Shown here one piece after another: positions 21,753 to 31,585 of a stretch of DNA of 64,000 bases. The notes below the pieces were generated by a model. It saw only the letters and a list, made by a program, of their open reading frames with translations. It did not search any database and had not been told where the DNA came from. Source of the DNA: Sedimentitalea nanhaiensis DSM 24252 (GTDB taxonomy: Bacteria > Pseudomonadota > Alphaproteobacteria > Rhodobacterales > Rhodobacteraceae). Both the position numbers and the translations under genes were made by a program. Each line of letters starts with the position of its first letter. Within the stretch, counting starts at the first letter, position 1. The DNA lies in contig NZ_KI421509.1 of NCBI RefSeq assembly GCF_000473225.1, positions 4,056,336-4,120,335 on the forward strand, given 5' to 3'.

Positions 21753-21766
21753 TTGATCGACATCAA
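21753..21766 (+). promoter_or_regulatory. perfect FNR/FnrL box upstream of phaC
   Basis: TTGATCGACATCAA matches the FNR consensus TTGAT-N4-ATCAA at every defined base. Its centre is 60 bp before the phaC start. With class II spacing (centre at -41.5) the -10 should fall at about 21789-21794, and TAAAGC at 21788-21793 fits within one base. Confidence 0.82.
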
Positions 21767-21819
21767 GGCAATTATTACTGCTGCCAGTAAAGCGATATCA
21801 GGCTTGCGGAGTTGAAATC

Positions 21820-23649
21820 ATGGCCCACGGACCAGCAGAGACAAATGTCGATCGGCACGATGGACCGAGGCAGAATGGATCTGCCCCTGACCCGATCAAG
21901 GATAACAGATGCAACGAGGTCAGCAGCCGATCTGTCACGGAGTTTCTAGATCGGGCGACCCATGCCGGAATGGCCCGGTTTACAAAGGGCGTGTCGCCTG
22001 CGGCACTTGCCGGGGCTTATCTGGATTGGATGGCGCATCTGGCGACATCTCCCGGAAAGCAGATCGAAATCACGCAAAAGGCATTTGGCAAATGGCTGCG
22101 GCTGTCGCGCTTTGCAATGACATGTGCCGGGGCACAAGCCGGTCTCGACCCCTGTATCGAGCCGCTGCCACAAGACCGTAGATTTCGCGATGAGGCCTGG
22201 CAGAAATGGCCCTACAACGTGATTTCTCAGGGGTTCCTGTTGAACCAACAGTGGTGGCACAATGTCACCACCGATGTGCGCGGCGTTACCCGTCAGCACG
22301 AAAACGTCATGGAGTTTGCGTCAAGGCAGATCCTGGATGCCTTTTCGCCGTCTAACTTCCTGCTCACCAATCCTGAAGCATTGGCAAAGACGCGCCAAGA
22401 GCGAGGCCAGAACCTTTTTCGCGGCTTTCGGAACTGGCTCGACGATCTGGACCGCCTGCAAAACGACAAGCCGCCCGCCGGGGCCGAAGCGTTCCGGCCC
22501 GGCCATGAGGTTGCCGTGACGCCCGGCAAGGTGGTCTATCGCAACCACCTGATCGAACTCATCCAATACACGCCGACCACCGAAACGGTCAGGCCGGAGC
22601 CCATCCTGATCGTGCCGGCATGGATCATGAAATACTACATCCTCGATCTTTCGCCGGAAAACTCGATGGTGAAGTTCCTGGTCGATCAGGGGTATACGGT
22701 GTTCATGATTTCGTGGCGTAATCCGGATGCCGAAGACCGCGATCTGGGGATGGACGATTACCGCAAGATGGGCGTCATGGATGCAATCGGCGCGGTGCAG
22801 GGCATTGTGCCGGGCCAGAAAATCCACGGCGTCGGGTATTGCCTCGGCGGCACGTTGCTTTCAATTGCGGCCGCAACAATCGGTCGCGACGGCGGCGATC
22901 CGTTCGCAACGCTCAGTTATTTCGCCTCGCAGATCGATTTCACCGAGCCGGGCGAATTGCAGCTGTTTATCAACGACAGCCAGCTGACGTTCCTGGAAGA
23001 CATGATGTGGGATCAGGGATATCTCGATACGACCCAGATGTCCGGGGCCTTTCAAATGATCAAGTCCGTGGATCTGGTCTGGTCGCAGATCCTTCACAGG
23101 TACCTGATGGGCGATGAAACGGCGATGTTCGACCTGATGGCCTGGAACGCCGACGGCACACGCATGCCGTTCCGGATGCATTCGGAATACCTCCGGTCGC
23201 TTTTTCTGAACAACGAACTGACCGAAGGGCGCTTTCTTGTCGAGGGGCGACCGATTTCCGTGACCGACATCCGGGTTCCGGTGTTTTCCGTGGGCACGGC
23301 CAAGGATCACGTGGCCCCCTGGAAATCGGTCTACAAGATGCATCTGTATCTCGATACGGACCTGACCTTTGCGCTCGCCAGCGGCGGTCACAACACCGGC
23401 ATCGTGTCTGAGCCCGGCCACAAGAACCGCAGCTATCAGATTGCCACGGCACGCCACGATGACCACTATGTCGATCCTGAAAGCTGGGCGGCACGAACCC
23501 CGAAAAAAGACGGCTCCTGGTGGCTGGACTGGGTGTCGTGGCTGGACGGGCGGTCGGGGGCACCCAAAGCACCGCCGTCTATTGGGAACGAAAACGCGGG
23601 GCTCGCCACCCTGACGGACGCACCGGGAACCTATGTCGTGCAGAAATAG
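21820..23649 (+). CDS. phaC: class I poly(3-hydroxyalkanoate) synthase
   Basis: 609 residues. Polymerises (R)-3-hydroxyacyl-CoA into PHA on intracellular granules. The catalytic triad is visible: Cys341 in the lipase-like box GYCLGG, Asp496 (GTAKDHVAPW) and His524 (SGGHNTGI). The family signatures PAWIMKYYILDLSPENS and FMISWRNP are present. Length and the N-terminal extension match class I enzymes. It is followed 72 bp later by an SDR dehydrogenase, then the N-ATPase operon, and 7 kb downstream by a phasin-like gene. A perfect FNR box upstream suggests induction at low oxygen. The usual phaA/phaB partners are not here, so this may be a second, condition-specific synthase. Confidence 0.95.
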   Translation: MAHGPAETNVDRHDGPRQNGSAPDPIKDNRCNEVSSRSVTEFLDRATHAGMARFTKGVSPAALAGAYLDWMAHLATSPGKQIEITQKAFGKWLRLSRFAMTCAGAQAGLDPCIEPLPQDRRFRDEAWQKWPYNVISQGFLLNQQWWHNVTTDVRGVTRQHENVMEFASRQILDAFSPSNFLLTNPEALAKTRQERGQNLFRGFRNWLDDLDRLQNDKPPAGAEAFRPGHEVAVTPGKVVYRNHLIELIQYTPTTETVRPEPILIVPAWIMKYYILDLSPENSMVKFLVDQGYTVFMISWRNPDAEDRDLGMDDYRKMGVMDAIGAVQGIVPGQKIHGVGYCLGGTLLSIAAATIGRDGGDPFATLSYFASQIDFTEPGELQLFINDSQLTFLEDMMWDQGYLDTTQMSGAFQMIKSVDLVWSQILHRYLMGDETAMFDLMAWNADGTRMPFRMHSEYLRSLFLNNELTEGRFLVEGRPISVTDIRVPVFSVGTAKDHVAPWKSVYKMHLYLDTDLTFALASGGHNTGIVSEPGHKNRSYQIATARHDDHYVDPESWAARTPKKDGSWWLDWVSWLDGRSGAPKAPPSIGNENAGLATLTDAPGTYVVQK

Positions 23650-23721
23650 GTGTGAAATCCCGTCGTATGACCGCGAGCACAGAGGCGTCAGCATGAAAAA
23701 GCCGACGAAAGGAACACCAAA

Positions 23722-24492
23722 ATGGCACGGCTGAAGAATAGAGTCGCCCTGATCACCGGTGGTGCGGCGGGCATAGGGCTGGAAACCGCCCGGCTGTTTT
23801 TGCACGCTGGCGCCAAAGTCGCCCTGGTGGATTTGAACGAAGATGACCTGTCCACAGCGGCAGGTGAATTAGGTGGTCTTGGCGAGGTGATGACCATCGC
23901 TGCCGACGTGTCGTCAGACAACGGCAGTGCTGGTTATGTCAAGACGACACTCGACCGGTTTGCGCGGATCGACGTATTGTTCAACAATGCCGGGATCGAG
24001 GGCAAGGTTGCCCCGCTGATTGATCAGAGTATCGATGATTTCGACCGGGTGATGGCCGTCAATGTGCGCGGTACATTTCTGGGGCTGCAACATGTTATGC
24101 CACACATGATTGCACGAAAATCGGGCAGCATTATCAACATGTCGTCCATCGCCGGGTTGAAAGGCAGTCCGAATCTCGCGCCCTATATTGCGTCCAAACA
24201 TGCGGTTGTGGGTTTGACCAAAGCTGCCGCGATCGAAGCTGCCCCGCACAACGTCCGGGTCAATTCCATCCATCCCTCGCCGGTCAACACCCGGATGATG
24301 CGCGCGCTTGAGGACGGTTTCAATCCGGGTCATGGCGCGGTGGTGAAACAGCAGCTTCAGGCGGCCATTCCGCTGGGCCGATATGGCGAGAGTGCCGACA
24401 TCGCCAATCTCGTCCTGTTCCTGGCCTCGGACGATGCGGCGTTCATCACCGGGGCGCAATACCCGGTCGATGGCGGTATGGCCGCAGGCTGA
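23722..24492 (+). CDS. short-chain dehydrogenase/reductase
   Basis: 256 residues, classical SDR. NAD(P)-binding TGGAAGIG at residues ~12-19, an acidic Asp-Leu-Asn after the second strand (ALVDLNED, suggesting NAD preference), NNAG near 90, catalytic Ser in MSSIAGLKG and YxxxK in YIASK. It lies between phaC and atpD in the same direction, so it may supply or interconvert hydroxyacyl substrates or recycle reducing power, but it is not a canonical PhaB and the substrate is unknown. The start has AAAGGAAC upstream. Confidence 0.88.
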
Positions 24493-30183: not shown

Positions 30184-31066
30184 ACTGTTGACCCGGCGCA
30201 CGGAGACGCTGCGCAGTATTCGCGGTATCGTGCGCACGATGAAAACGATGTCGGCGATCAACGCGCGGCCATACGAACAGGCGGCCCAGGCCATCGAGGC
30301 TTATCACGACACCGTGCTGGATGGCTTGCACGCATTTCTGCACCGTACCGGCGCGTTGCCACCGGTGGCGCAGCCGGATGCGATGCCAGTGATCATCGCC
30401 TTTGGCTCGGACCTTGGGCTCTGCGGCAACTATAACGAGATTCTGGCGACAGAAACTGCACGGGCAATGACCCTGCTGCCCGCGTCGCGAGTCATCTGCA
30501 TCGGGGTGCAAATGGAGGATGCGCTCACCGGTCTGGGCATGGTTCCGCTGGCCACCCTGCTGCCACCCGCGACAGCCGATGGGCTGGGCCGTCTGGCGGG
30601 CGATCTCATCGCCCGGATCGATGCGATCCGCCGCGATGACATATCTGCGGCGATTTCTGTGACCTTGGTTTTCATGCGCCGCGCCGAACACGGTCAGCAA
30701 AGCCCGATTGCGCAGCAATTGCTGCCGCTGGATCCCGAATTGATCAGTGCGCTTGCCGCGCGGCCCTGGAACTCGAGGAGTCTGCCACACTTCAGCCTGC
30801 CTCCCGACGCGCTTTTATCCGCACTGGTCCGCAATTTCCTGTTCGCAGGCTTGTTCCGCGCCGCAGCCGAGGCGCTTGTGACCGAGAACGCCGCACGACT
30901 GGCACGCATGCAGCAGGCGGAACAGTCGGTCGAGGACCGGCTGGAGGAGCTTATTTGCGATACCCGCTCAGTTCGGCAGAGTGAAATAACCACCGAACTC
31001 TTGGATGTGATCATCGGCTTTGAGGCGCTGAAGGACCGCGACCGGCGCAAGACCGGCGAGAGATAA
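30167..31066 (+). CDS. atpG: N-type ATPase, gamma subunit
   Basis: 299 residues, central rotating shaft. The N-terminal helix ([33 protein letters not shown]) and the C-terminal helix ([39 protein letters not shown]) that form the coiled coil are recognisable although the middle is diverged, as is usual for N-type gamma subunits. Last gene of the operon. Its stop is followed within 35 bp by an FNR-like box for the next gene. Confidence 0.9.
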
Positions 31067-31097
31067 TTCCTCCACTGCCGCCGGGCAGAGATGGACA

Positions 31098-31139
31098 TTG
31101 ATGTGGGTCAAAGCCCGGGCATCGCAATTCTGCTATCCT
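31098..31139 (+). promoter_or_regulatory. FNR-like box and -10 upstream of the phasin-like gene
   Basis: TTGATGTGGGTCAA at 31098-31111 matches TTGAT-N4-ATCAA with one change. TATCCT at 31134-31139 lies exactly where the -10 should be if the box is centred at -41.5, the class II FNR arrangement. It is the second FNR-type site in this block after the one before phaC. Confidence 0.68.
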
Positions 31140-31174
31140 TCGTACCGAAGATTTATATGGAGGGTGGAGAAGAG

Positions 31175-31585
31175 ATGCCGAATTCGAACAAGCGTCAGGC
31201 GGTCGGCGGCGGCATGCCGTGGGATCCTCTGAACAGCCCGCAAATGACACATTTCATACGGATGCAGAAACTGCTGTTGAGCGAAACCGAGAAGTACTCT
31301 TCTGAGTGGTTCAGGCGCCGGTGTGAGGCCGCCGCGACAGCAACGCGCGCGGTGACAGAAACAGCCTCGGGAGGTGTGATCGATCCGCTAGTCGTGTCAA
31401 GGGCGCTGATTGATTGGCAAAGGGGTTCAATGCAACGGTTGAACGAAGATTTTCGTGATTATCTGGGCATGATGAACCGCTGCGCCCAACGCATGGTAGA
31501 AGAAGAATCCGAGGCGATCACGGAGACGATCGAGGATGTCGCAAAAGCGACTAAATCCACCAGAGCGCACTCCAGCCCGGTTTGA
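31175..31585 (+). CDS. phasin-like protein
   Basis: 136 residues, mostly amphipathic helix without transmembrane segments (for example WFRRRCEAAATATRAVTETA and RMVEEESEAITETIEDVAKAT), the composition and length of phasins that coat PHA granules. It follows the N-ATPase operon and its promoter carries an FNR-like box like that of phaC, which supports a granule-associated role. The start at 31175 is chosen for the GGAG upstream and the phasin-like length; an earlier in-frame ATG at 31091 would overlap the FNR box. Identification is by composition and context, not by a sharp motif. Confidence 0.65.
   Translation: MPNSNKRQAVGGGMPWDPLNSPQMTHFIRMQKLLLSETEKYSSEWFRRRCEAAATATRAVTETASGGVIDPLVVSRALIDWQRGSMQRLNEDFRDYLGMMNRCAQRMVEEESEAITETIEDVAKATKSTRAHSSPV

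Follow-up and report, generated by a model that had tools for sequence, protein, structure and literature searches.

A putative oxygen-shortage unit in Sedimentitalea nanhaiensis: an FNR-boxed PHA synthase gene beside an N-ATPase operon

The window analysed here, a 64,000-nucleotide stretch of Sedimentitalea nanhaiensis DSM 24252 (C4:4056336-4120335 of the 4.95-Mb genome), carries a polyhydroxyalkanoate (PHA) synthase gene (phaC), a short-chain dehydrogenase/reductase (SDR) gene, the nine genes of an N-ATPase and a phasin-family gene, all on the plus strand, with FNR-type boxes ahead of phaC and of the phasin-family gene. The locus is probably an oxygen-shortage unit of this FnrL-bearing Rhodobacteraceae-type bacterium, in which phaC and the phasin gene would be under FNR control together with the N-ATPase, and in which phaC would have replaced the arginine deiminase (arc) genes found in relatives. 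The boxes and the linkage of the N-ATPase to its partner genes within the family are solid.

Results

Two FNR-type boxes ahead of PHA genes

The locus contains the following features.

21753-21766, plus strand: FNR-type box 1, TTGATCGACATCAA; perfect TTGAT-N4-ATCAA, centre 60.5 bp before the phaC ATG
21820-23649, plus strand: phaC; class I-like PHA synthase of the window type, PF07167 and PF12551
23722-24492, plus strand: SDR-family dehydrogenase gene; found elsewhere after arcDABC or directly before atpD
24519-25919, plus strand: atpD, N-ATPase beta; best model TIGR03305 at 716.8 bits, below the cut-off of 752
25916-26326, plus strand: atpC, epsilon; TIGR03166 at 108.8 bits, above the cut-off of 100.1
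26323-26610, plus strand: atpQ; PF09527, and TIGR02230 above cut-off
26607-26903, plus strand: atpR; PF12966 at 25.1 bits, slightly below the cut-off of 26
26900-27601, plus strand: atpB, subunit a; TIGR03306 at 294.1 bits (cut-off 302.1)
27598-27888, plus strand: atpE, subunit c; TIGR03322 at 141.7 bits, above the cut-off of 130.85
27891-28658, plus strand: atpF, long subunit b of 255 residues; TIGR03321 at 203.5 bits (cut-off 224.7)
28648-30183, plus strand: atpA, alpha; TIGR03324 at 648 bits (cut-off 750.5)
30167-31066, plus strand: atpG, gamma; TIGR03323 at 204.2 bits (cut-off 282.35)
31098-31111, plus strand: FNR-type box 2, TTGATGTGGGTCAA; one mismatch to TTGAT-N4-ATCAA, centre 70.5 bp before the ATG of the phasin-family gene
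31175-31585, plus strand: phasin-family gene; Phasin_2 matches among relatives, two-helix model

Both boxes are present where an earlier note on this DNA had placed them, ahead of phaC and of the phasin-like gene, at 21753 and 31098. They are the sole exact matches to TTGAY-N4-RTCAA in the 64 kb (0.24 expected; two are reached by 3 of 100 shuffles) and belong to a set of 37 such sites genome-wide, while TTGAT-N4-ATCAA with at most one mismatch occurs at 3 sites in the window against 1.7 expected, a count reached by 20 of 100 shuffles. Since this number of sites is not unusual for 64 kb, the weight of the boxes lies in their position and in the relatives, not in the window count. At class II spacing box 2 would direct a start near 31146, with TATCCT at 31134-31139 (4/6 to TATAAT) and the ATG at 31175 downstream, and box 1 a start near 21801, with TAAAGC (3/6) as its candidate -10. 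Neither promoter is listed by a simple sigma-70 scan.

The boxes recur in relatives

Two sets of loci were pooled: 51 named ones surrounding gamma-subunit relatives, and 38 stretches of family genomes surrounding their beta subunits. Removal of five duplicates left 84, of which 50, the window excluded, were counted as N-ATPase heads, i.e. an atpD with no SDR, HdeD-like or arc gene abutting it upstream. At 26 of the 50 heads the 350 bp upstream of atpD contain a box with at most one mismatch. The true half-site ranks first against 60 permuted motifs (permuted median 0), and the next two, with 16 and 14, are near-variants of it; enrichment is seen for a spacer of 4 only, at 26 against 3 or fewer for any other spacer. 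The permuted motifs and spacers at N-ATPase heads rule out a chance origin of the boxes (a further control with the reversed pattern, which contains rare TAG/CTA words, was judged unfair and left unused). Upstream stretches of phaC or phasin genes in the same 84 loci have a box in 12 of 20 cases, and boxes precede atpD outside the family as well, in L036, L041, L062, L150 and L151. The variant TTAAC-N4-RTCAA is likewise recurrent at promoters of these relatives. The earlier note had proposed to look for such boxes and neighbouring genes at other N-ATPase operons; both were found, and 10 of 28 family genomes have phaC no more than 10 kb from the N-ATPase.

Two further genes recur in the named loci some 0.9-2.5 kb past atpG, each in 20 of 51: one encodes a CBS-domain protein, and the other, in converging orientation, a regulator of the Crp/Fnr family; one representative of either cluster was checked by family model, and neither cluster has a member in the window locus.

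The window phaC is distinct from housekeeping phaC

The window PhaC scores 534.5 bits with TIGR01838, below the cut-off of 622.65, although class I is still its best-scoring class and the lipase-like box GYCLGG is visible. It is 48-77% identical to PhaC of its own type in other loci and 34-39% identical to housekeeping-type PhaC. Among phaC genes with enough upstream sequence, a box is present at 10 of the 17 of window type (the window, its own copy and a genome entered twice are included) and at none of the 15 of housekeeping type (one entered twice). These identities and the lack of boxes at housekeeping-type genes rule out housekeeping PHA synthesis as the role of the window gene.

The genome has six PhaC_N genes, one of which is a second copy of the window gene 177 kb away, at about C4:4254.1-4256.0 kb (L143:4102-6036). 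The copies are 99.88% identical over 1715 bp with 2 mismatches, and their proteins 99.8% identical; the match (21940-23654, against about C4:4254.1-4255.8 kb) begins 120 bp into the window phaC and stops 5 bp past its stop codon, and blastn finds none between the copies for the first 120 bp of the gene or the promoter. The two promoters are unrelated, and each copy has its own perfect FNR box. The second copy is divergent from an ABC exporter; the ATPase of this exporter shares 55% identity with an exporter ATPase close to the N-ATPase in L049, and the cluster of the L049 ATPase is also present in L031 and L044.

The N-ATPase is linked to phaC, acetate kinase and arginine deiminase genes

Linkage was scored in 28 family genomes with a beta subunit above 670 bits, about one genome per genus and without the window genome; G244 and G246, which have two N-ATPase loci each, were entered with one. 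As noted above, 10 of these genomes have phaC no more than 10 kb from the N-ATPase against 0.30 expected; 8 have ackA (acetate kinase) at up to the same distance against 0.17, and 6 have arcA (arginine deiminase) within 5 kb against 0.02, where the distances and cut-offs were picked after the loci had been seen and the expected numbers understate chance somewhat, because related genomes are not independent draws. At least one of the three lies within 15 kb in 17 of the 28. Family models confirm, in one representative each, arginine deiminase, ornithine carbamoyltransferase, carbamate kinase, the YfcC-type carrier, phosphate acetyl/butyryltransferase and acetate kinase. Across 98 scored loci, now with the window, phaC/phasin, ackA/pta or arc genes are nearby in 55; a divergent beta group of 18 loci has phaC in 4, arc in 2 and ackA or pta in 2. 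On the atpD tree phaC/phasin must have changed state at least 17 times and arc at least 21 times, and the N-ATPase itself is found in 13 of 397 genomes of a phylum sample at E <= 1e-195.

The earlier note had read the PHA genes and the N-ATPase as one low-oxygen programme. This is partly supported and right in outline, with family linkage beyond chance and the boxes in its favour, but it is too narrow, because arc and acetate kinase modules share the same pump, and it is wrong on the dehydrogenase. In the passages considered, PMC9927469 reports an N-ATPase and PHA genes in one genome and states no link between them. Within the terms searched, and with the original N-ATPase paper outside the search, no report of an N-ATPase with arginine deiminase was found, nor did the terms searched return any pairing of the 'alternate F1F0' ATPase with anaerobic growth or of a Na+-translocating ATPase with Fnr.

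The SDR gene belongs to an arc context

The dehydrogenase had been counted as part of the PHA programme, a claim not supported by its context elsewhere, which is arc. In 14 of the 51 named loci the SDR, at 74-79% identity, directly precedes atpD, with arc genes upstream in 8 of the 14. At 75% identity or more it occurs in 6 of 295 family genomes, the window genome included (three weaker matches are at 58-61%): it precedes the N-ATPase in two, G000 and G183, and follows arcDABC in the other four. In all four of the family genomes where it is away from the N-ATPase (L171-L174) it stands directly after arcC, at a gap of about 30 bp. Its nearest solved chain is levodione reductase 1iy8. A PHA function as 3-hydroxybutyrate dehydrogenase or PhaB was rejected: its PHB_DH score of 202 falls short of the cut-off of 307, general SDR models are the best named matches, and the context is arc. 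By its neighbourhood, then, the SDR is an arc-operon gene. Separately, a DUF308 (HdeD-like) membrane protein gene is seen before the SDR or atpD in 12 of the 51 named loci.

A search of the window genome for arcA gives no match at E <= 1e-40. We infer that the window is a derived form of an arcDABC-SDR-N-ATPase unit that lost arc and acquired phaC in its place, with the SDR as a remnant. The SDR tree leaves the window row on a long branch, unplaced, and resolves the order of events weakly, so that arc loss rests on synteny and the missing arcA.

Identity of the N-ATPase and of the phasin-family gene

The operon, at 24519-31066, is the full second ATPase operon announced in the earlier note, with nine genes; the 4-bp overlaps described there hold at five junctions (D-C, C-Q, Q-R, R-B and B-E) and not at E-F (2-bp gap if atpF begins with ATG 27891), F-A (11-bp overlap, atpA from 28648) or A-G (17-bp overlap), where the starts were read by eye. 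Its genes run DCQRBEFAG, which places Q and R between epsilon and a, and this agrees with the N-ATPase order rule of PMC11738941. A separate delta subunit gene is absent, and the long b subunit (255 residues) matches TIGR03321. The curated cut-offs of the 'alternate F1F0' models are passed by C, Q and E and missed by D, R, B, F, A and G; the beta-model cut-off is passed in only 1 of 295 family genomes. Helix 1 of subunit c has Glu30 and helix 2 has E63-S64-T65..Y68, residues that are commonly interpreted as binding Na+. Among 104 loci the c-subunit pair is ST in 77, TT in 11, TM in 6 and SV in 1, with no match in 9. Coupling of the window N-ATPase to Na+ is plausible from these residues. The c-ring of the Burkholderia pseudomallei N-ATPase carries Thr-Met and is H+ specific (PMC5376962), and ProAD predicts 893 N-ATPases to be H+ specific and 914 Na+ specific (PMC11738941). 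N-ATPases are presumed to be ATP-driven ion pumps (PMC11738941), and their cellular job has been called largely unexplored (PMC5376962).

The phasin-like protein of the window matches no Pfam or NCBIfam phasin model. Its relatives, sought within the N-ATPase loci collected, match Phasin_2 (PF09361) at E up to 1 in 11 of 16 aligned members (best 1e-7), the window member being without a match, and its predicted structure consists of two long helices with a mean pLDDT of 84. No second copy of the gene is found in the window genome at E <= 0.01.

FnrL and its likely sites

The genome encodes FnrL (NF045989, 464 bits against a cut-off of 300), and next to fnrL are genes for a radical-SAM protein (hemN by eye), a Usp protein and an oxidase of the COX1 family (ccoN by eye). 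TTGAY-N4-RTCAA sites stand directly before fnrL, between the Usp and oxidase genes, and ahead of a further gene of the COX1 family (ctaD by eye); cbb3 and aa3 oxidase genes and Usp genes are FnrL targets in Dinoroseobacter shibae (PMC5398030). Perfect TTGAT-N4-ATCAA boxes number nine in the genome: two precede window-type phaC genes, two are at oxidase genes, four (L002, L004, L005 and L111) have no phaC- or oxidase-like target that we could see, and one further box is at C4:2817417.

Neighbouring genes

Upstream of phaC, at 19760-20820, lies a gene pair for the alpha and beta subunits of sulfopyruvate decarboxylase (TIGR03845 and TIGR03846, both above cut-off), enzymes of the coenzyme M pathway. 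Farther downstream, the region 50722-55343 holds a regulator gene of the Crp/Fnr family that has no close named model and whose neighbours encode sulphur-transport, metallo-beta-lactamase-fold and BLH-phosphatase/pyridine-nucleotide oxidoreductase domains; the domain content of this group suggests sulfide or persulfide metabolism.

Discussion

We propose that when oxygen runs out FnrL, or a relative of Dnr type that recognises this box as well, would activate phaC via the box at 21753 and the phasin gene via the box at 31098. Transcription from the phaC promoter would continue past the SDR gene and across the whole N-ATPase operon; read-through is suggested because the two gaps (phaC-SDR 72 bp, SDR-atpD 26 bp) contain no terminator-like site. 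Once aerobic respiration no longer supplied the ion gradient that the cell needs, the N-ATPase would spend non-respiratory ATP to hold it, while PhaC and the phasin would build granules that absorb reducing power and acetyl units. The pump of relatives is found beside arcDABC, where carbamate kinase would provide its ATP, or in a phaC-pta-ackA-phasin arrangement, where acetate kinase would do so. The wider proposal, on which we are evenly divided, is that the N-ATPase of Rhodobacteraceae serves anaerobic modules under FNR/Dnr control (arc, acetate kinase and PHA) as an exchangeable end part that pumps ions, and that the window records a swap of arc for phaC. If true, this module-swap reading would give the N-ATPase a defined physiological job. 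The recurrence of the pump next to anaerobic pathways that yield ATP, with boxes of FNR/Dnr type, offers a concrete hypothesis for its role, which would also suggest a reason for the retention of a second PHA synthase, switched by oxygen, in some bacteria.

Several observations weigh against the oxygen-shortage unit, as does the understated chance in the linkage figures. No box is found at 24 of the 50 N-ATPase heads, before atpD in 14 of a further 20 loci (6 have one), or before 7 of the 17 window-type phaC genes, among them L018, whose row starts at a fragment of a frame-broken phaC and which has a one-mismatch box at L018:758, 83 bp before the longer frame. In the window itself the N-ATPase has no box of its own and the -10 of phaC is poor, and the pta and ackA genes of this genome adjoin another phaC, at C4:306-311 kb, that has no upstream box. 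None of phaC, ackA and arcA is within 15 kb of the N-ATPase in 11 of the 28 family genomes. Outside the family, 29 loci (20 named and 9 drawn, some stretches being short) show arc genes in 7, phaC in 1 (L065) and ackA/pta in none; the seven with arc comprise six named loci, five of them Marinobacter, and L153. Residue-based prediction of the ion also failed for the B. pseudomallei c-ring (PMC5376962), which has Thr-Met where the window has Ser-Thr.

The boxes could be real and yet be read mainly by another Crp/Fnr protein, of Dnr or FixK type and responding to nitric oxide (NO) or some other cue, in which case the unit would answer NO or denitrification rather than oxygen. We regard this as unlikely, though it is the alternative that fares best. 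The TTAAC variant recurring at these promoters has a counterpart in TTAAC-N4-GTCAA, a tested Fnr/Dnr site at nirS of D. shibae (PMC5398030); regulator genes of this family follow the N-ATPase in 20 of the 51 named loci; and 9 stretches of the genome score above the HTH_Crp_2 cut-off. The window boxes, however, are of the TTGAT type, FnrL is present, and the downstream regulator cluster is missing from the window locus; moreover, oxygen and NO-type cues can act together.

That two separate neighbours are involved, an FNR-controlled storage phaC and phasin gene and, between them by chance, an SDR-N-ATPase group serving as a salt or pH pump from its own promoter, seems improbable. The phasin gene does have its own box where the N-ATPase has none, a presumed ATP-driven ion pump would suit such a task, and phaC may have arrived recently, as it is one of two nearly identical copies. 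This separation is hard to square with the frequency of phaC near the N-ATPase in family genomes, the many state changes on the atpD tree and the boxes at over half of the N-ATPase heads. Hitch-hiking, in which N-ATPase, arc and PHA genes, all of them mobile and suited to low oxygen, would accumulate in islands and have no joint function, would suit the patchy distribution of the N-ATPase and its frequent rearrangement on the atpD tree, but is quite improbable, as same-strand runs, the short gaps on either side of the SDR (to atpD here, to arcC in L171-L174) and shared boxes are hard to explain by islands alone.

Comparison with known systems

The oxygen-shortage unit that we favour can be set beside four known systems. 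The N-ATPase, or alternate F1Fo ATPase, is reportedly the subject of Dibrova et al. 2010. The window operon resembles it in its beta-epsilon-Q-R-a-c-b-alpha-gamma order, long b subunit, lack of a separate delta gene and two-carboxylate c subunit (cf. PMC11738941, PMC5376962). It differs in standing behind an FNR-boxed phaC and an arc-type SDR, and in having E-S-T..Y in subunit c rather than the Thr-Met of B. pseudomallei. The arcDABC operon is under Anr control in pseudomonads. The window SDR is the arc-linked SDR, and relatives have arcDABC, often a DUF308 gene, and then the SDR and N-ATPase, whereas in the window genome, with no arcA match, phaC stands in the place of arc.

The FnrL/Dnr regulon of D. 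shibae has the same box types, TTGAT-N4-ATCAA and TTAAC-N4-GTCAA, and the same oxidase and Usp genes as targets (PMC5398030). The ATPase genes named there as repressed are the ordinary ones, and the main text of that article makes no mention of polyhydroxy, phaC, phasin or PHB (PMC5398030). MppG, a regulator of R. sphaeroides that represses a PHA synthase operon there, is not a Crp/Fnr protein (PMC4263372). For PHA genes, an FNR-type regulator, Anr in Pseudomonas extremaustralis and Fnr in Herbaspirillum seropedicae, is needed for phaC expression or polyhydroxybutyrate (PHB) accumulation (PMC9049629). The window phaC would share with these systems a dependence on an FNR-type regulator; it differs from them in lying ahead of an ATPase operon and in belonging to a type of phaC that carries the box where the housekeeping type does not.

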